DNA from: Sipunculus nudus
Taxonomy: Eukaryota > Annelida > Sipuncula > Golfingiida > Sipunculidae
Length of the DNA stretch: 64,000 bases
Assembly: GCA_026874595.1 (NCBI GenBank)
Contig: CM049310.1
Span: 30,629,558-30,693,557, forward strand
Direction of reading: 5' to 3'
Below, in pieces: positions 5,664 to 55,900 of the stretch. The notes beneath the pieces are model-generated. The model was given only the letters and a program-made list of their open reading frames with translations, made no database searches and was not told where the DNA came from. Each line of letters begins with the position of its first letter. The stretch's first letter is position 1. The position numbers and the translations under genes were made by a program.

Positions 5664-8600
5664 CAGGAGGGGGCGAAATAACTAACCACACGGCCACATC
5701 ACGAGGATCAGTAATTCCGCCCCCTCGTGATGTGGCACTGTGATATGTTATTTCGCCCCCTCCTGAAGTGGCCCTATAATCAGTAACGGTTATTTCGCCC
5801 CTTCGTGATGAGGCCCTGTGATCAGTTATTTCGCCTCCTATTGATGTGATCCAGTGTTCAGGAATCTCGTGATGTGACCCTGTGATCTCTGATCAGTAAT
5901 TTCGCCCCCTCGTGATGTGGCCCTGTGATCAGTAATTTCGCCCCTTCGTTATGTAACCCTGTGATCAGTTATTTCGCCCCTTCGTGATGTGACCCTGTGA
6001 TCAGTAATTTTGCCCCTTCGTGATGTGGCCTGTGATCAGTGAGTCCGCCCCCTCGTAATGTGACCCTGTGATAAGTAATTTTGCCCCTTCGTGATGTGGC
6101 CTGTGATCAGTGAGTCCGCCCCCTCGTGAAGTGACCCTGTGAATAGTTATTTCGCCCCTTCGTGATGTGGCCTGTGATCAGTGAGTCCGCCCCCTCGTGA
6201 AGTGACCCTGTGAATAGTTATTTCGCCCCTTCGTGATGTGGTCCTGTGATCAGTTATTTCGCCCCCTCGTGATGTGGCCCTGTGATCAGTAATTTCGCCC
6301 CTTCGTTATGTAACCCTGTGATCAGTTATTTCGCCCCCTCGTAATGTGACCCTGTGATAAGTAATTTTGCCCCTTCGTGATGTGGCCTGTGATCAGTGAG
6401 TCCGCCCCCTCGTGAAGTGACCCTGTGAATAGTTATTTCGCCCCTTCGTGATGTGGTCCTGTGATCAGTTATTTCGCCCCCTCGTGATGTGGCCCTGTGA
6501 TCAGTGATTCCGCCCCCTCGTGAAGTGGCCCTGTGATCAGTAATATTCCCCCTCATGATGTAAACCTGTGATCAGTAAATCGCCCCTACGTGATGTGGCC
6601 CTGTGATCAGTAATATTCCCCCTCTTGATGTAACCTTGTGAATAGTTATTTCGCCCCTTCGTGATGTGGCCCTGTGAACAGTTATTTCGCCCCTTGTGAT
6701 GTGGCCCTGTGATCAGTTATTTCGCCCCTTCGTGATGTGGCCCTGTGATCAGTAATATTCCTCCTCTTGATGTAACCCTGTGAACAGTTATTTCGCCTCT
6801 TGTGATGTGGCCCTGTGATCAGTTATTTCGCCCCTTCGTGATGTGGCCCTGTGATCAGTAATATTCCCCCTCTTGATGTAACCCTTTGATCAGTTATTTC
6901 GCCCCTTCGTGATGTGGCTCTGTGATCAGTTATTTCGCCCCTCGTTATATGGCCCTGTGATCAGTTATTTCGCCCCCTCTTAATGTAACCCTGTGAATAG
7001 TTATTTCGCCCCCTCTTGATGTGATCCAGTGATCAGTAATCTCGTGATGTGACCCTGTGATCAGTAATATTCCACCTCTTGATGTAGGCCTGTGGTCAGT
7101 TATTTTCGCCCCCTCTTGATGTAACCCTGTGATCAATTATTTCGCCCCTTGGAGATGTGGCCCTGTGGTCAGTAATTTTGCCCCTTCGTGATGTGGCCCT
7201 GTGATCAGTAATATTCCCCCTCTTGATGTAACCCTGTGATCAGTTATTTCGCCCCCTCTTGATGTAACCCTGTGATCAATTATTTCGCCCCTTCGAGATG
7301 TGGCCCTGTGGTCAGTTATTTCGCCCCTTCATGATGTGGCCCTGTGATCAGCAATATTCCCCCTCTTGATATAACCCTGTGAATAGTTATTTCTCCCAAT
7401 TCGTGATGTGGTCCTGTGATCAGTTATTTCGCCCCGCCTCGTGAAGTGGCCCTGTGATCAGTAATATTCCCCCTTTTGATGTAACCGTGTGATCAGTTAT
7501 TTCGCCCCATTCATGATGTGATCCAGTGATCAGTAATCTCGTGATGTAACCCTGTAATCAGTTATTTCGCCCCCTCGTTATGTGGACCTGTGATCATTTA
7601 TTTTCCCCCTCTTGATGTAACCATGTGATCAGTTATTTCGCCCCTTCGTGATGTGACCCTGTGATCAGTTATTTCGCCCCTTGGAGATGTGGCCCTGTGG
7701 TCAGTAATTTTGCCCCTTCGTGATGTGGCCCTGTGATCAGTAATATTCCCCCTCTTGATGTAACCCTGTGATCAGTTATTTCGCCCCCTCTTGATGTAAC
7801 CCTGTGATCAATTATTTCGCCCCTTCGAGATGTGGCCCTGTGGTCAGTTATTTCGCCCCTTCATGATGTGGCCCTGTGATCAGCAATATTCCCCCTCTTG
7901 ATATAACCCTGTGAATAGTTATTTCTCCCAATTCGTGATGTGGTCCTGTGATCAGTTATTTCGCCCCGCCTCGTGAAGTGGCCCTGTGATCAGTAATATT
8001 CCCCCTTTTGATGTAACCGTGTGATCAGTTATTTCGCCCCATTCATGATGTGATCCAGTGATCAGTAATCTCGTGATGTAACCCTGTAATCAGTTATTTC
8101 GCCCCCTCGTTATGTGGACCTGTGATCATTTATTTTCCCCCTCTTGATGTAACCATGTGATCAGTTATTTCGCCCCTTCGTGATGTGACCCTGTGATCAG
8201 TTATTTCGCCCCTCGTGATGTGGCCCTGTGATCAGTTATTTCGCCCCCTCTTGATATGATCCAGTGATCAGTAATCTCGTGATGTGACCCTGTGATCAGT
8301 TTTTTCGCCCCCTAGTTATGTAACCCTGTGATCAGTTATTTCGCCCCTCTTGATATAACCCTGTGATCAGTTATTTCGCCCCCTCTTGATATGATCCAGT
8401 GATCAGTAATCTCGTGATGTGACCCTGTGATCAGTTATTTCGCCCCCTCGTGATGTGGCCCTGTGATCAGTTATTTCGCCCCCTCTTGATATGGTCCAGT
8501 GATCAGTAATCTCGTGATGTGACCCTGTGATCAGTTATTTAGCCCCCTAGTTATGTAACCCTGTGATCAGTTGTTTCGCCCCCTCTTGATGTAACCCTGT

Positions 8601-8970
8601 GAATAGTTATTTCGCCCCATCTTGATGTAACCCTGTGAATAGTTATTTCGCCCCCTCTTGATGTGATCCAGTGATCAGTAATCTCGTCGTGGTGTGACCC
8701 TGTGATCAGATTTTTCGCACCCTCGTTATGTGGCCCTGTGATCAGTTTTTTCGCCCCCTCTTGATGTAACCATGTGAATAGTTATTTCGCCCCCTCTTGA
8801 TGTGATCCAGTGATCAGTAATCTCGCGATGTGGCCCTATGATCAATTATTTGGCCCCTTCGTTATGTGGCCCTTTTATCAGTTATTTCGCCCCCCTCGTG
8901 ATACGGCCCTGTGATCAGTCATGTGGAGCCCTTGTAATGTGGCTCTGCGACCAGTTATTTCAGTTATTTC
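5664..8970. repeat. ~36-bp satellite array, ~3.3 kb
   Basis: About 90 tandem units built from GATCAGTTATTTCGCCCC followed by YTCGTGATGTGGCCCTGT. Variant classes recur: CTTGATGTAACC, GATCCAGTGATCAGTAATCT and GTAATATTCCCCC. Every unit carries TGATCA. The first unit (5664-5710) is inverted relative to the rest. A 532-bp block (7151-7682) is repeated immediately at 7683-8214. Reverse-frame ORFs across it (6326-6556, 6945-7136) are simply the repeat read through. Confidence 0.95.
7151..8214. repeat. 532-bp higher-order tandem duplication inside the satellite
   Basis: The succession of unit variants from GGAGATGTGG at 7151 recurs in the same order from 7683, a shift of 532 bp. Shared private variants include TTTCTCCCAATTCG, GCCCCGCCTCG and CATTTATTTTCC. 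The two blocks look nearly identical by eye, which means a recent duplication of about 15 units. Confidence 0.9.
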
Positions 8971-16200: not shown

Positions 16201-18200
16201 GTTAAGACAGAAAATATATTTCTTGCTATTTTGATAAGGTACCTAATTAATGTTTCGGTGCATAACTTTTACAAATCATGAAATATTTACCTAATCTTTG
16301 GCCCATTCATAGGAAATATATAACAGAAATTTATGAATGTTTATAAATATGAACAAGCACAGATGAGTGGTTTTGATATTAGGCAGTCATAAAGTGTAAC
16401 AGCAGGTTTTTCATTATTTCTCGAAGGACCGAAGTCGCATAGGCCAGATTTTGGGCTAGGAATAAGAAGTAAGAGAACTTATAGACATCTAACTGTTTGT
16501 CAAATTATTGATTTGTAGGTCTAATGGTTTCAAAACGTGCCAGTCTAACGGACAGACAGACGGACGGACGGATGAGAGACAATGGATCATAATTATAGCT
16601 CAAATGACTTATAGTCAGCTGAACTAAACATTGTAATATTTGTCAACAGTTTGGACAGTGATAAGGTTTTCCGGAGATCTTTGGTTATTGTTGCAATTTT
16701 CAGATAGTGTTGCTCATGATGTCTCTTTAATTTATAGTCTGCTGATTTTTTTAGTATCTATACCATAGTGTCTTATAGTTCATGAAATACATTTTATTTC
16801 AAAACTACTTGAACAAGAATAAGCATGACGATAACCAAGAGATCATTCATACAACACCGTTTGAACGCTGGTGTATCTTCTAATACTTATAAAAGGAATT
16901 CAGTTCACGTTTGTTCGCAATGTTCTCTAAAACCGCGCTGTGTACAATATTGTGCCATACATCATTTTAAAGGTTATTAACCCCGCAGTGACATGGGCGA
17001 TATGAAAATAAATAATTTTTAATATACGTATAATTTTGAGTGATTTTTCCGTTTTTTTACCGAGCACAGCCGAACTGCCTTCGGCAATCACCGGAATGCG
17101 TGCATCCTGATCACTTAACCACTAACACTAAGGACTATTGTTCATATGAATAACGCTTGCTTTCAATGAGGGATTTGGCCCACGTGCGTGGTCAGTAAAA
17201 GATAAAAACACATGTTTCTCGCTTTATGAAATGGAGAGTTCAACCCAGGAGGATTAATGACAAAACCTAATTCAAGGTCCCAATTTCAGGAACAGGCGTG
17301 GGGTGGGGTGGGGTTGAGTGGTGTCTGGGGTTTCAGGCCTCAAAATTTGTCTGATACAATGAAAAAAAAACATTGCGGCTGTTGAAAATGAATACGGACC
17401 CTCTGCATGCATGGAGTCCCGTTGGGTCCGCTTCTGCTACTTACGAGGTATGCATATTTCTGTTTCTTTCTTCAGGAACAGTTTCCTTGTAACGTACATT
17501 TAATAAATTTTTCATGTGTTCCTCACATCAACCTAATCTTTATACGTGCACCGATAGAATCCAGTCAAATATCATCGAAAACCTGAATGCCCCCGCGTCT
17601 CACTCCATTTCGCAATGTCAACACCATCACTGGCCAAGTCATCAATGTAAACATACCGGGGTATAAATTTCTTGCCAACAGGACAGAACCACAAAATAAA
17701 TGTTTAAAATTTTGGAGCGACTGCAATATCACTCACGCACTGTCTCCACCAGATTATGAGTTTATACGGACGGACGGTATGATGTTAAGGATTCATGTAA
17801 TTTAAAAGTGGCAAAATTAAGATACAAGCACCTGTACATAGAAACGTTTTCTGTTCACAGAAGTGTTGTGCCTCAGAGAGGTGCATGAGTTATTCTGCAG
17901 TCGTGCCAAAATGTTTATACATATCTTATGAAGACAGTTTCCCACTGAAAACCTATATTTTCTGTTAACTTTTAGAATAAGAAAAAATGAGAAAACATTT
18001 CACATCTCAGTTAATATATCTCCCTAACCCCGGTAATAAGCCCGGTATACCGGGTCTATCAGCTATAGTGGTAAAATAAAAGGTATTTTCTGCCTTGTCA
18101 AGTTTGATGATTTTCAAATTTTCCCCCACACAATTGCTTAGGACTTTAAGGACATTAAGGCCACATTAAGGAATCAAAATCAGGTAATTTGCTTTTGTTG
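13263..18200. other. ~5 kb separating two halves of a gypsy copy; mostly unrecognised
   Basis: Apart from a LINE 3' end at 14.73-14.98 kb and a GGACGGACGG-type motif near 16.56 kb, I recognise nothing in it. The motifs AGGGAAAA and AGTCAGG recur several times at 14.05-14.16 kb. It may be an insertion that split the gypsy element, or the gap may be secondary sequence decay. Confidence 0.5.
14730..14980 (+). mobile_element. non-LTR retrotransposon (LINE) 3' end, decayed
   Basis: Translation gives RFSTCGPSLWNE, then FKRKFKTNLF. This matches the WN...LP...FK..LK..LF pattern at the C terminus of CR1/jockey-type reverse transcriptases. It is followed by an AGCGCC...GGCGCTATATGAAAT hairpin-like tail and AATAAAGTTTAAGTTT. 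Only the last part of the element is present. Confidence 0.6.
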
Positions 18201-19868
18201 CAATTTGTGTGCGGTTGACCACTAATTTAGGTAAAATGCCTGTACTATTACTCCATGGTACTAAAGAGCTTCAACTAGTATTGCCGAAACATTTGATGAA
18301 AAAAGGCTTTTTTTTTATTACACGACCAGGTAGGTCATACGGGGCGTTAGCCCAAGAACGGTTTTTCTGGGTACACATGGGCCGCGATGTCCAAGCTTAT
18401 GTGCGATCCTTTATTCGTTGTACGCGGAGAAAAGCTTTAAAACCAAAAGCTCCACTACCAACTATTCATAAAACGCAGCCACTGGAACTCCCTTGTCTAG
18501 ATAACACTTGAGGCGTCCAAAGGCGGCTTTGAAAGCAAACTGGTGATGAAAGATCACTTCACTCGCCATTCAGTGGCCGTTCCAACCAAAAATCAGACCG
18601 CAAATACAACAGCATTACCTCTCTCAATAATTTCATTGTTGAGTTTGGTTTTCCCCAGCGTCTGCACAGCGATCAAGGTAGATCTTTTGAAAACACTATT
18701 ATAAGAGAGCTATGTAATATTTTTGAATGCAGAAATCACGCACTTCACCATACTCATCAATGGGTAATGGCGCCTGTGAACACAGGAACCAAGTTCTACT
18801 TAACACGCTTGGTATCTTCAATCCGTCACAGAAAAGTGATTGCAAAGCGCATGTAGCTCCTTCTGTCCACACTTACAAGTGTACAAAGCATGAAAGCACA
18901 GGGTATTTTCAATACTTTTTGTTTCGTAGACGGCCAAGATTGCCAGTAGATTTAGTACAAATTACTAATCTAGATTCAAAGCCAAAAGGGCACTTACACA
19001 GAATTCACTTCCGACTTAAAAGATAAATTAGAAGATGCTTATAAGACTGCGTTAAACCAAGTGGCTGATAAAAAGAACAAGCAGCGCGCAGCTTATAACG
19101 AATTTTTTAAGAGGAGCCAGGTTACAAAAAGGAGACCGAGATTTGGTCAGAAATCTCCACATGAAAGGTAAAGCGAAACCGCTGACAAGTGGAAATCGGA
19201 AATATATGTGGTGGTGGATCAGAAAAATCCTGATAAGCCAGTAAATTCTGTAAAGAAAGAAAATTCAAACGGGTCCGCCAGAGTGTTACACAGAAATCAC
19301 ATCCTGCCTGTTAGTGAATTAAGACCTGAATTATTAACCGAGTATCGAAGTGAAACCACTAAGAGAATACCCACTAGAATCACAAGAGCCAGCAGAAATG
19401 TTATAAATACCCCTGATTCCCAATTTTCAGATTCTGATTCAAAAAATGAAATGTATATGTATGATGGGACGCATTCCACTGTACCTGCTGAGCAGCGTGA
19501 TTTTGAAAATGATCCGGGAGTTTCGAGCGTTGGCCTTCCTCTGAAGTCTGAAAGTCACAGAATTAGAAGCCTCCGATTCCCCCTTAAATACTTCGATTGA
19601 CTTGGCTGTATCTCCTCGATGTTTAACTTTTGACGAATCTGTCCCACCTACAGTTTATGATCAGTCAACCGTAATACCACTTGATCAAAAAATGAGTCCC
19701 TCCGAAGACATAAGGCGCGAACTTTACACTGTGACGTCACCATGTCAATTTTCGATGCGGTCCACACGCGCCAAAAGAGCACCTGCATGGTTCTGCACGG
19801 GTAAAAATTGGGTGTTCTCTAAACCAAAGAATCATAAAACCCATGTATATCATTTTTTGACGAAATAA
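18200..19868 (+). pseudogene. Ty3/gypsy integrase region, broken
   Basis: Segments in order: KELQLVLPKHL; LAQERFFWVHMGRDVQAYVR with C..C (RCTRRK), the end of the H2C2 zinc module; a QPLELPCLDNT segment where the core should start, with a stop; an RTSPYSSMGNG segment of the core; an integrase C-terminal KNKQRAAYNE piece near 19.08 kb; ARVLHRNHILPV; and finally RSTRAKRAPAWF near the pol end. Several stops and frame changes separate these, and the HxxxH part of the zinc module is garbled (RPGRSYG). It is a dead copy in intron 1 of the NTF2-like gene. No LTR was identified. Confidence 0.85.
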
Positions 19869-21084: not shown

Positions 21085-21228
21085 TGGACAAAGTGAAGAC
21101 AGCCCTTGTGAAACGCAATGAAGAATTCTCTGCATTTTTTGCTGCCAAAGACTTCGACGGGTTGGTTGGCTTATACCTTCCGAACGCGCAGCTGATGCCG
21201 CCAGGGTCTCCGTGTGTACCAGTGTCAG
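21085..21228 (+). CDS. NTF2-like gene, exon 2
   Basis: A 144-nt exon that enters and leaves in phase 1. It encodes DKVKTALVKRNEEFSAFF, AAKDFDGLVGLYLPNAQLM and PPGSPCVPVS, the first helix and first strand of the NTF2-like fold. The donor is CAG|GTAAGTAT. The exon's last ~25 bases plus the donor are copied five more times downstream (see the repeat at 21193-21540). Only this first donor joins exon 3 in frame without a stop. Confidence 0.85.
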
Positions 21229-21540
21229 GTAAGTATGTACCTCCACAACGTCCAGCTGATGTCCCCGTGTGTACCAGTGTCAGGTAAGTATGTACCTCCA
21301 CAACGTCCAGCTGATGTCCCCGTGTGTACCAGTGTCAGGTAAGTATGTACCTCCACAACGTCCAGCTGATGTCCCCGTGTGTACCAGTGTCAGGTAAGTA
21401 TGTACCTCCACAACGCCCAGCTGATGTCCCCGTGTGTACCAGTGTCAGGTAAGTATTTACCTCCACATCGCCTAGCTGGTTTTTCCGGAGTTCTCGTGTG
21501 TACCAGTGTCAGGTAGGTATGTACATCAACAACGCCCAGT
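21193..21540 (+). repeat. 55-bp minisatellite carrying a 5' splice site in each unit
   Basis: Donor GT dinucleotides occur at 21229, 21284, 21339, 21394, 21449 and 21513. The first five are exactly 55 bp apart and the last is 64 bp on. Each is preceded by GTACCAGTGTCAG and followed by GTAAGTAT or GTAGGTAT. The unit is made of the 3' tail of exon 2, the donor and about 15 nt of intron. Because 55 is not a multiple of three, use of donor 2 shifts exon 3 into a frame that meets TGA. Donors 3-6 include the in-frame TAA at 21285-21287. Confidence 0.95.
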
Positions 21541-22894: not shown

Positions 22895-23045
22895 GAATCA
22901 AGCAGTTCTTCGAGAACTTTGCCGGAAGCGGTGTCGCCAATATAGACCTTCCAAATGAGGAGGTGGTGGTTCACGGGGACATGGCGGTCACGAGGGACCG
23001 CGTCATTTGTTCTAAAGAAGATGGTACCGTCACCTTCAAGGGAAA
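22895..23045 (+). CDS. NTF2-like gene, exon 3
   Basis: The acceptor is TGTCTGCAG at 22894 and the donor is AAA|GTATGT at 23046. The exon is 151 nt, phase 1 in and phase 2 out. It encodes IKQFFENFAGSGVANIDL, PNEEVVVHGDMAVTRDRV and ICSKEDGTVTFKGK. The GDMAVTRD...TFKGK strand pair is the signature part of SnoaL/DUF4440-type proteins. Confidence 0.88.
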
Positions 23046-25758: not shown

Positions 25759-25831
25759 AGTAATCGTGGTCTGGATGAAGAAGGATGGCCAGTGGTACAT
25801 GCTTTTTGACACGTTCAACGAGGGCTGCTGA
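25759..25831 (+). CDS. NTF2-like gene, exon 4 and stop
   Basis: The acceptor is TTTTTATTGAAG at 25758. The first base completes an AAA codon (phase 2). It encodes VIVVWMKKDGQWYMLFDTFN and then EGC followed by TGA at 25829-25831. The VVW.K.DG.W....D.FN pattern is the last strand pair of NTF2-like proteins. No clear AATAAA was found within 500 nt. Confidence 0.88.
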
Positions 25832-28164: not shown

Positions 28165-28241
28165 AAGCAAAATATTCAATACAATAGGTAATGCCCAACA
28201 AGATATTCAGTAAAACGGGTAATTCCCAACAAAATATTCAA
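28165..28241. repeat. ~31-bp tandem repeat, left part (interrupted array)
   Basis: Units of AATATTCAATACAATAGG followed by TAATTCCCAACAA. The array stops at the transposon end at 28242 and resumes at 32599. Confidence 0.85.
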
Positions 28242-28773
28242 TAGGGGACTGCATCGTTGTTGTTTTCATCCGGGCTACTGCTGGCCTGGTCAGAGGCTGG
28301 TAGGCAAAAGCCAATACCTATTATAAGTAGGTCATCCTTTGTGTACTAGATACATTTGTTATCAGTATCTCTCCATTACTTGTTCCAGTAATTTTATGCC
28401 CTATTCAGTTTGTTTGCAAATTAGTTAATGCATCAAAGTATATTGTATGCATCAAAGTATACACAATGTTAGTGATTATATAGTGGTCAGCTTTCAATTC
28501 TGGACCCTCACAGCATGACAAATGGTTGAACAGATGATGTAAAAGTATAGCTAGACACCAAAAGAGGCCATGTCATTAAATCCTCATCTGTTTCATTAGC
28601 CTGTACAATACACCAACCAAAGACAGCTTACTGGTGAGTCTCTGGTGGGCTACAATAATATTAAATCTGAATGTGCAGGCCTTATGGTACCACCCAATAG
28701 AGAAATGTAGCCGAGTTCGTTTTATGCACAATCTCCTGTCTTAGGTTTCAGAAGTTTTGTCTCATGCAGGAAA

Positions 28774-32402: not shown

Positions 32403-32598
32403 GTAAATTATCTTGCAATTAATTTGATAAGACTGACATATTAAATGTAGAATGCAAACAATATAGTTATAGAACATAGAATAAGCCCACAGAGGAAGAA
32501 GTGCAACTGATACAGTCAACATCCCTAAGTGTTTTGCCTACCAGCACTGCACGTGCTGCTAAATCACGTGGTCTCTGACGTCACGATGCAGTCCCCTA

Positions 32599-32785
32599 TA
32601 CAATAGGTAATTCCTAACAAAATATTCAATACAATAAGAAATTTCCAACAAAATATATAAATCAATAGGTAATTCCCGATTAAATATTAAATACAATAGG
32701 TAAATCCCAACAAAATATTCAATAAATAGGAAAATCTAAAAAAAAAATATTCAATAAATTAAGTAATTCCAACAAAATATTCAGA
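32599..32785. repeat. ~31-bp tandem repeat, right part
   Basis: Five to six units with CAATAGGTAATTCC and AACAAAATATTCAA, continuous with the array left of 28242 once the TIR element is removed. Confidence 0.88.
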
Positions 32786-42241: not shown

Positions 42242-42467
42242 TTTAATAGAAATAAAAAAAAGCATTAATCTAATTATAATGTTATCATATTTTTATTATT
42301 AAAGCTCGTATAATAAAGGATTTAAGCACGGTTGGTAAATAAATATACAAATACTACAAATACCGGCATGTTTATTATCATAATTATTATTATCCATTAT
42401 TATAACATTCTTTGCTTCTTGTTCTTATTAGTTTTAGTATTAGTGTTTTATTATTATTTTCTTGCAG
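41279..42467 (+). other. intron 1 of PA/EB gene
   Basis: It contains a (TTA)n microsatellite at 42180-42240. Open frames such as 41357-41659 are not coding by appearance. Confidence 0.55.
42180..42240. repeat. (TTA)n microsatellite
   Basis: About 19 uninterrupted TTA units. Confidence 0.95.
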
Positions 42468-42641
42468 GTTTTATACTGCTGGCTGTGACAGTGGAGGATA
42501 CAGAAGCTCAGCTTCTCTGTGGTATTCCTGGCACAGCTTGCTGTTCGTCCGATGTATGTATAAGGAAGGGGTCTTCTTGTGTGGGCGGGGTCTGTGTATG
42601 TGACATCGGTCTGAGAAAGGTTGATACCCATTGCCTCACTG
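42468..42641 (+). CDS. PA/EB gene, exon 2 (first Cys-rich module)
   Basis: The acceptor is TTCTTGCAG at 42467 and the donor is ACTG|GTAAGT. It is 174 nt, phase 1 on both sides. It encodes the rest of the signal peptide, then LLCGIPGTACCSSDVC, IRKGSSCVGGVCVCDIGLRK and VDTHC. The eight cysteines end in the C-x4-C-x-C pattern shared with exon 8, as in EB/EGF-like modules of invertebrate surface proteins. Confidence 0.88.
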
Positions 42642-42744
42642 GTAAGTTGGAATACTAACATATCTAATGTAATGTGATATAATAGAGCTAAAGGTAGGGT
42701 TTAATAACAGAAAGAGTAGCTTTGCCCATCCATTCATTTATATA

Positions 42745-43190
42745 GTCAGTGTCTGGAGACCCATTTTTCACTGTCCGAAACACGGTGTCAAGTTTCTGGA
42801 CATCTGATGTCTATTATCTTAAAAAGTAGTCATTTTCTGTACACCTGATGTTCAATATCTAAAATGTATCATTTCTCTAGACATCTGATGTTTATTATCT
42901 AAAAAGTAGTCATTTTCTGGACACCTGATGTTCAAAATCTAAAAAGTAGTCATTTCTTTTGACGCTTGATGTTCATTATCTAAAAAAGTAGTCACTTCTC
43001 TTGACACCTGATGAGCATTATACAAAAACATAGCAAATGCTCTGGTCATCTGATGTTCCTCATCTAAAATTAATAATTTCTCTGGACACCTGATGTTCAT
43101 TATTAGAACAGTAGTCACTTCTCTGGACACCTGATGTTCATTATCTAAAAAAGTGGTCATGTCTCTGATAACCTGATGTCCATAAAGAAA
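42745..43190. repeat. ~43-bp minisatellite in intron 2
   Basis: About ten degenerate units with TCTGGACACCTGATGTTCAT followed by TATCTAAAAAGTAGTCA. It starts about 100 bp after exon 2. The minus-strand ORF at 42939-43160 is the repeat read through. Confidence 0.92.
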
Positions 43191-43224
43191 AATCCGTCGT
43201 TACATCAAAGATGATGCTTGCAAG

Positions 43225-52999: not shown

Positions 53000-55900
53000 G
53001 TTTCCTTTCATGGCAATAACACAGTTGCTGATAATCACAGGGGTCATACCAGATTGATGTCCTACGAGCACGTTAGGACCGTCTAGGTGGCACGGATGGC
53101 ACGGAATCTAAATGATCTGCTTCAGATTCCAGTCTTGCAGTCCTCTCAGCATTATCGATAGGAAAAACTTCGTCCACCGCGACATGAATTCGTGGTTCAG
53201 TCGTTTGAGATCGTAAGGGAATGATCATCCATCTCGGACTCGATGTTTAATTGCTCCGAAGTTCTTAACGTGCCCTGTGTCTCAGTGAGTTGAAGGTTTG
53301 GTGTGTTTGACGTATGTTCAACTTGTGCCTCTATCTCAGTTATTATGTCACTGCTATTGCTGAAGTTCGGGAGATCAAGAGGGTGAATCGTGTTCGATGT
53401 GTCCCTGGCCAATGGAAATCGACGTGGGAGAGGTACTGATTTAGTGCTCACTCGCGTCGGCATAGGACGGGATACAACTGGGATTACATCTTCATCAGAC
53501 TCAGCAGACTCCTCCAGCTCTATGTCTCATGATGCTTTGCCACCCAGATCTGCCATTTAATTGTGTGAAGTAGGTAAGACATTTTTTGACTTAGATAAAT
53601 CGCAATTTACGATTCCATCAATGAGGGAGAAAAGCTTCCTATTGGCAAAAGTCATTTTCGATGCAGGGTTCTCGTTGGTCATTTTCCATCCTCTGCCTCA
53701 TGTTCATAAACAAGAATATCTAGATTTAACTCTTACACCACAATATAGACGTTTCCTTGCCATCAATCTGCTAGTTTCTGGTTACCTGAAGGCTATGCTT
53801 CTTAAAAGCATCCGGTACCCCTTTTGTAGAGTAGCTCCTCTTGTGCGTGATTCATAATATCTTTTTTTCTGTTGTGCTTGGGAAATATTTTTCGAAGCAA
53901 GATCATAGGCGAAACGTAGACATTTCCTTAGATTTATAACCCTGACGCTGCATGTCGGTACGAGTACTACATTCGACATCAATTAGTAGTCGCTGATTCC
54001 TCCCAAACGTAAGGTAGAACGGAAGACAATTTTGTGGTTTCATGCGGTGTGCAGCTGAATGCATGAACTATAGGTGCTATAGTTTCTTCCAATCTGCTTT
54101 CTCCGATAGTTCAAAGATACCGAGCATATCCAGTAATGTTCCATTGAATCGCTCACAATGACCATTTTCACTTGGGTGACAGGGCGAGGTTCTGGACTTG
54201 GTAATACCGGTCAACTCGCATAGATGATTGACGGTGGAATTCTCTAACTGACGACCCTGGTCACTACGTAGTTGTGAACAATGAAAATTTTTAAATTGCG
54301 TCATGGCGGTGACGAGGGCTGTTTGATTCTTTTTTGGATAGGCTTTTGAGTACTAGTGAAATGATCTGTAATTACAAGAACATTTTCATAGCCGCCATAG
54401 TCGCGGTTTTCAATGTTAAATAATCCATACATACCAACTCCATCGGGTGACTTGTGGTGATATTAACGAGAGGAGCACTCCGGGTTTGGAGGGGTTTCCT
54501 ACGTATGTAACGTTCACAAGCTGCTACATAGTCCTCTAGGTCCTTGGACATAATTGCCAATAAAACCGGTCTATAATCTTGATTGTATTACTAGCTGAAA
54601 AACCAGTTCATTCGCTTGTTGTCGCTGATGATATAAAACACCGTCTCGTAGACACAATTCCTGCCTTACTTTATAAAAGAAGCGCAGTTCCTTTGAATCT
54701 TACCCTTTTGCGTTGGACGCACCCTCCTGTTTCCGATGATTGGATCTTCTCTTTGCAGTATATTCCAGTCCTGTGTTAACTTTTGACTTAGTACAGTGTA
54801 ATCCTGAAATGGAACGGCACTATGTGATAGTGACAGGATGTCTACAAACCCTCAAGGTGGGTTAGCAGCTTCCAGAATGACCGACACTGTTTGACAGGCG
54901 ATTGTGTTGAACTCTTATGGCAGGAATATAGGTGAAAGTGCACATGCATCTACTATTTTCGACCAGATTAATACTCAATGGACAAATTGTAGTTCGCGAA
55001 TGAGCAACCCGTCTGTGACTAGTGGCATTTAGTTGTACGTAAGTTCATGGATATGTCAAAGGATTGTTATCTGTCTTAACAGTGAATGTGTTCCATACAA
55101 ATAATTATGGAATTTGTCTGTAACTGCCCATTTTAACACTGAGAATGTTAATTTTATGGGCTGAATAATTATTTTCTGATTTGCTGAGTCCTCTACTAGC
55201 ACGGTGAGTCTATCAGTTCCATCGGAGTGTGTCAGGTATAATGCTGCACCCAAAGATTATGAAATAACATATGTATGGAGCAAAAATGGTTGAAAAAATT
55301 CTGCAAAAGCTAATACTGGTGTTGTGCAGTAATGGACCTTTATTTCCTCAAACGTTACTTGACGATGTTTATCCCTCCTGAGTTTTTTCAGTTGCTTGAC
55401 CCTTGCGAATCCTTAGGTTACTACATGTCCCAAATACTTTATGGATTTCTAAAAAAAATGCATTTGGACGCCTCCAGCTTTACAAGCAGCTCGCCATCGT
55501 TCAAAAACAAATTCCAGTTTTTCTAACTACTCCTTATATGATTTACTGAGTACCACTATGCCGTCTAAATAGAGAAGACAGTAATTCAAATGAACATTCC
55601 CCATACATTGCTCCATTAGCCTTTTGAATATTGCAGGTGCATTCGTTAAACCAAACAACATCTGTTCACCCTCGAAGAAACTGACCTGACCTACAACAAA
55701 AGCTGTTTTGGCCTTGTTCTCTTCGCTCTGCTCAACCTGCCAATAGGCACTCTTAAGGTCCAAAGTACTAAACCATTTTGCCCCTTGTAAGTTGTCAAAC
55801 GTCTCAGCTGCGTTCATTAACATAAGTGGATTCAGTCGTCGTAGATCAATGCAGAATCCTGAACTGCCACCTTTATTCCGAAATTATACCACGTTTGACA

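Follow-up and report, generated by a model that had tools for sequence, protein, structure and literature searches.

The second exon of a DUF4440/SnoaL-like gene in Sipunculus nudus ends in a tandem array in which the exon end and its splice donor occur six times, and the question raised by this locus is which of the donors is spliced and what accounts for the others. Six donors were located by direct reading and by script in the window (the whole 64,000-nt stretch analysed), with intron starts at 21229, 21284, 21339, 21394, 21449, and 21513, that is, at spacings of 55, 55, 55, 55, and 64 bp, while Tandem Repeats Finder reported a 55-bp array with 97% matches at 21206–21478. The claim of the earlier note that the exon end and its donor had been multiplied to six copies, five at a 55-bp period and the sixth 64 bp on, was thereby confirmed. 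The array that it had described from 21193 is also real, but the in-register start is further upstream (Table 1). The repeated stretch takes in the final 46 nt of exon 2 and runs on into the start of intron 2. Its units are recognizable by the mark AACG..CAG, which reads ATCGCCTAG in the sixth unit, at 21183, 21247, 21302, 21357, 21412, 21467, and 21531. A 9-bp stretch is kept by both outer units and is absent from the four inner ones, and it is this difference that makes the last step an odd 64 bp. Three of the four inner 55-bp units are identical and the fourth is two differences away. Units 1 and 6 are identical across 21 bp around the donor, yet of their first 22 aligned positions 11 are different (scan P 0.002; longest-run P 0.017), a pattern that could result from gene conversion or from constraint in this region.

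When donors were scored with a simple position matrix, five of the six top-scoring ones in the window belonged to the array. Donors 1–5 are exact copies of CAG/GTAAGTAT (the slash marks the exon–intron boundary), scoring 12.63, whereas donor 6 scores 10.06, thus of the six strong and nearly equal donors proposed earlier five are equal and the last is weaker. On its + strand the window contains the exact 11-mer CAGGTAAGTAT five times, always within the array, and on the other strand not at all, against an expectation of 0.018 per strand from the window dinucleotides. With one mismatch allowed, the window had seven hits (1.17 expected), six of them in the array, and a count of seven was not reached in 100 shuffles (largest 6). 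An exact search for a core 24-mer returned four places in the 1.43-Gb genome, all four in this array.

Table 1. Positions of the exons, the array, its flanking short repeats, and the six donors in the window
Feature	Position	Strand	Basis
Exon 2 (144 bp) of the DUF4440/SnoaL-like gene, ends TCA G at donor 1	21085–21228	+	acceptor TTTTTATTTCAG, open frame, protein match
Tandem array, six units (64, 55, 55, 55, 55, 64 bp) plus closing AACGCCCAG	21183–21539	+	Tandem Repeats Finder, script, register alignment
Left short repeat AACGCGCAG, exonic	21183–21191	+	register alignment
Right short repeat AACGCCCAG, intronic, near-copy of AACGCGCAG	21531–21539	+	register alignment
Donor 1, CAG/GTAAGTAT, coding donor	21226–21236	+	sequence; intron position common to paralogue L011
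Donor 2, CAG/GTAAGTAT, contains TAA 21285–21287 read from donor 1	21281–21291	+	sequence, script
Donor 3, CAG/GTAAGTAT	21336–21346	+	exact 11-mer
Donor 4, CAG/GTAAGTAT	21391–21401	+	exact 11-mer
Donor 5, CAG/GTAAGTAT	21446–21456	+	exact 11-mer
Donor 6, CAG/GTAGGTAT, weaker, in the most diverged unit (21467–21530)	21510–21520	+	script, matrix score
Exon 3 (151 bp), contains TGA 22956–22958 reached via donor 2	22895–23045	+	script
Exon 4, coding part, to stop TGA 25829–25831	25759–25831	+	

Joining exons 2, 3, and 4 at donor 1 gave a product of 121 residues, which matched DUF4440 (profile 7–106 of 107, E 4.7e-10) and the solved putative ketosteroid isomerase 3hx8 (E 1e-06), the alignments running across the donor 1 junction with only a one-residue gap near it. 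The gene is intact-looking, its exon 1 was not found, and a peptide-pattern search for prokaryotic relatives of the protein yielded 110 stretches that fit the pattern, none of which was confirmed. By our own reading, a paralogue on contig 15 (L011) shares all three intron positions and lacks the array at the corresponding place; the donor of its exon 2 is a weak G/GTCATA. A second, distant match on contig 3 (L010) covers exon 3 only. Given the DUF4440/ketosteroid isomerase match and the intron positions of the paralogue, donor 1 is very probably the original splice site.

According to the script, the protein is preserved by donor 1 alone, and each of the other five donors leads to a premature stop. 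As had been predicted, use of donor 2 adds 55 nt and brings a TGA of exon 3 into frame, 87 nt before the exon 3/4 junction, and transcripts cut at donors 3–6 include the in-frame TAA of donor 2, which then lies 51, 106, 161, and 225 nt, respectively, ahead of the exon 2/3 junction, so that for each of the five downstream donors the stop precedes a later junction by over 50 nt. This TAA belongs to the donor word itself, and since 55 and 64 both leave a remainder of 1 when divided by three, the TAA of the next donor is in frame when reading continues past donor 1. The claim that only the first donor keeps the frame holds in effect, as the others run into stops, but not arithmetically, because donor 4 (+165 nt) regains the frame behind the TAA.

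The genome (1,426,538,692 bases in 153 contigs) was also searched for arrays of the same kind. Three CAGGTAAGT at 39–69-bp steps were matched 118 times in forward and 207 times in reverse orientation, and the reversed pattern 103 and 25 times; the forward-strand excess over the reversed pattern is little, and because most of the matches overlap one another within a few long arrays, the comparison is a poor test of enrichment. For the CAGGTAAGTT class, 36 and 10 matches were obtained against 0 and 3 in the control. Taken together, these counts leave an enrichment no more than possible. The CAGGTAAGT class included at least 15 separate arrays among the matches listed, all 15 of which were fetched (L042–L056), and the six arrays counted in the CAGGTAAGTT class were all fetched as well (L057–L062); the far end was cut in L047, L056, and L060, and both ends in L057. 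For 18 of the 21 arrays (all but L049, L057, and L058), one or more open frames that end at the first donor were compared with Pfam or solved structures. Nine of the 21 fetched arrays had a clear protein or domain match ahead of the first donor, the names being those of the best matches: XPD (L053, E 3e-8), importin-13 (L055, E 4.3e-8), ABCC2/MRP (L046, E 8.7e-10), HADH (L047, E 1.6e-8), TXNDC5 (L056, E 1.7e-39), NUP58 (L059, E 1.2e-13), STRAD alpha (L061, E 1.3e-6), MROH-like HEAT repeats (L060, E 1.8e-7), and TPR (L042, E 5.9e-9). A PH match in L045 (E 0.023) was a weak tenth. In seven of the nine, all but TPR and STRAD alpha, the match extends to two or fewer residues from the donor. No exon match in Pfam or solved structures was found for the eight compared arrays L043, L044, L048, L050, L051, L052, L054, and L062. 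As a control, protein matches were sought downstream of the 13 arrays whose end is known; in 5 of these, at least 20 residues could be searched, with one weak hit below the cut-off (E 0.0074).

The copy number across the sister arrays ranged from 2–3 up to at least 117. In the TXNDC5-like array (L056, 4857–9001 on the donor strand, end cut), the exon end is followed by at least 86 tandem 48-bp units, 62 of them with the exact consensus donor; its unit length is a multiple of three, but reading on passes only two more exact donors before an in-frame stop is met. The 47-bp array of L057 (1–5501, both ends cut) has at least 117 copies, 44 with the exact donor word.

Tandem arrays are common in the window, where we counted ten minisatellites per 64 kb, covering 9% of it; scaling this figure gives a rough estimate of approximately 220,000 in the genome. 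With donor numbers and donor-word frequencies typical of animals, chance seeding could yield tens of CAGGTAAGT exon-end arrays, therefore a donor-targeted mechanism is unnecessary. Elsewhere in the window, a 36-bp minisatellite of approximately 92 copies lies at 5706–8961 (unit GATCAGTTATTTCGCCCCCTCGTGATGTGGCCCTGT); a 21-base part of this repeat was not found in viral contigs, nor was the donor core. Two separate arrays, at 28168–28243 and 32598–32783, have similar 31-bp units, hence the unit has seemingly moved or been carried within the window. An open frame with a weak EB-module match (42326–42658) precedes a donor-like site at 42642, and the 40-bp array at 42795–43192 was considered as a second boundary array and rejected, as it starts approximately 150 bp past that site and never reaches it. 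Fragments with integrase and reverse-transcriptase matches at 18188–18856 and 54077–55883 are likely decayed retrotransposons, and searches of the window for Rfam families (gathering score) and tRNAs found none.

Conservation of the donors was then compared within the sister arrays, the ends of which were set by Tandem Repeats Finder. Of 19 arrays, 18 had an exact first donor (12.84 expected, P 0.003), L058 having given no unit and L057, whose start was cut, having been dropped; with L057 retained the figure was 18 of 20 (P 0.009), and in arrays of at least eight copies, L057 included, 13 of 15 (P 0.017). In L049 and L050 an exact donor stands just ahead of the start called by Tandem Repeats Finder, which makes the genuine first donor exact in these two arrays as well. 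The donor of the second copy was exact in 14 of 18 arrays (11.84 expected, P 0.18); among the 16 arrays that were not cut, 8 had an exact donor in the last copy (10.85 expected). Changes against the consensus in downstream copies were counted in all 15 arrays, from both fetches, in which five or more copies beyond the first were usable, with copies aligned to the unit and first copies excluded. Donor letters were changed at 334 of 4959 positions (6.7%) and other letters at 1221 of 20231 (6.0%; Wilcoxon P 0.64), the donor rate being above that of the rest of the unit in 8 of the 15. As the arrays had been chosen for three CAGGTAAGT, donor conservation is biased upwards in these numbers; only in a count of 11 arrays from the first 15 was a stretch of three exact donors left out of each array that had one. 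In that count donor letters changed at 203 of 2790 positions (7.3%) and others at 683 of 10973 (6.2%; Wilcoxon P 0.64), and in 4 of the 11 arrays the donor rate was the lower one. In the nine exon-matched arrays the counts were 129/2763 for the donor versus 711/12908 for other letters (P 0.16); the GT letters by themselves, pooled, gave 36/614 versus 711/12908 (P 0.82; higher in five arrays, lower in four). Single arrays differ, for example, in L055 the GT letters change at 9.1% against 2.9% for the rest of the unit, and given these differences selection may act against some downstream donors. Overall, there was no sign of preservation or removal of the downstream donors, whereas the first donor looks as if selection protects it.

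As far as sequence can tell, these counts speak for a passive growth of the repeat in which the first donor is the one spliced. We consider it probable that the locus is an exon-end minisatellite of the kind known as mirages in amphioxus, in which the first donor is spliced and the other five are drifting by-products. The genome produces many tandem arrays, some of which by chance start at exon ends. The first duplication may have arisen by slippage or unequal exchange between the near-repeats AACGCGCAG and AACGCCCAG, whose position on both sides of the array fits such an origin, and the inner unit would have been amplified later. Extra copies would be tolerated so long as the first donor works. 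The protein and the sister arrays suggest that splicing takes place at this first, exon-defining donor, while the five later ones would drift without detectable selection, any use of them resulting in a premature stop. In vitro, when two donors are equal, the preference often falls on the intron-proximal one, which would instead predict the use of donor 5 or 6. Exon definition and transcription order are the likely grounds for a choice of the first among many equal donors. Masking of the downstream donors by RNA hairpins was rejected, as the fold of the array was within the range of shuffles (z 0.60; 69 of 100 at least as stable). Splicing between the copies, or recursive splicing, seems less likely, as the AG sites of the inner units have weak pyrimidine tracts (0.44–0.62), and a new intron formed by tandem duplication of the boundary is, with the same weak tracts upstream of the inner AG sites, not evident here.

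The earlier note had suggested that the array could be regulatory, the extra donors diverting splicing to NMD products so that copy number sets the protein level. A premature stop follows from the use of any of the five downstream donors, four of which repeat donor 1 exactly, and this would suit such a role, but in the 15 sister arrays the downstream donors are preserved no better than the rest of the unit, and copies vary from a few to more than a hundred. We regard this explanation as unlikely: while the first donor is kept, the downstream ones drift, leaving a tuning of productive against NMD-targeted mRNA by copy number, and more generally a regulatory role, unsupported on present sequence comparisons, and the selection on downstream donors that had been envisaged was not detectable, since in the sister arrays they change like the rest of the unit.

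It is quite unlikely, in our estimation, that several donors are used at some level to generate transcript or protein variety. A precedent exists in human IFI6, which employs two downstream repeat units as donors (PMC4526556), and some downstream exact donors of the sister arrays keep an open frame, five in the ABCC2-like and two in the TXNDC5-like array. These seven, however, are the only open ones among 202 downstream exact donors in ten exon-matched arrays (the weak PH one included), and at the present locus the 55-bp unit is not a multiple of three and donor 2 has a TAA inside it. The downstream donors could also act as uncut U1 sites that aid exon definition or suppress early intronic polyadenylation, as five donors match the 5′-end of U1 over 11 nt; this we hold to be very unlikely, for the donor letters are not preserved over the rest of the unit in the sister arrays. 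That the six-unit copy number is an assembly artefact, as the identity of three inner units might suggest, is scarcely credible in a short array with distinct outer units and many similar arrays in the same assembly.

Genes in which from a handful to dozens of identical donors compete provide a ready-made test of 5′ splice site choice, and exon-end arrays may be raw material for new introns or isoforms. A broader generalization, that in this genome exon ends repeatedly become long donor arrays and that its spliceosome dependably settles on the first when dozens of equal donors are on offer, is possible but doubtful; if true, nature would here have demonstrated a first-donor, exon-definition rule across a whole genome, perhaps with a tolerance special to the lineage.

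An exon-end minisatellite carrying donors is a kind of array already known. Mirages are reported as boundary minisatellites of amphioxus Adh3 and of the globins BflGb6 and BflGb9 (PMC3087553), and PMC3902484 likens splice-site tandem repeats of lancelet PGBD5 to them, mentioning TnC as well. Mirages have many units with AG/GT signals (the Adh3 unit measuring 10–72 bp), their edge units escape homogenisation, and regular splicing is reportedly undisturbed (PMC3087553, PMC3902484). The present array resembles them in that its tandem units span the exon–intron boundary, but differs in its host genome, which at 1.43 Gb is approximately three times as large as that of Branchiostoma (approximately 0.5 Gb), and in its gene, DUF4440/SnoaL not being among the mirage genes named in the relevant passages of the two papers. 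The intact first donors of the sister arrays would be in keeping with undisturbed splicing here as well. The set of arrays suggests that boundary-spanning minisatellites may extend beyond lancelets and can occupy conserved genes. The second known case is human IFI6 (G1P3, 6-16), where a minisatellite supplies several donors (PMC4526556; Turri et al. 1995, by its title) and the two downstream units used encode different isoforms (PMC4526556). Both are exon-end minisatellites, and the units described here likewise carry a consensus donor, five of the six exact and one weaker; unlike in IFI6, none of the downstream donors of the Sipunculus nudus array keeps an open frame, and all five lead to a premature stop.
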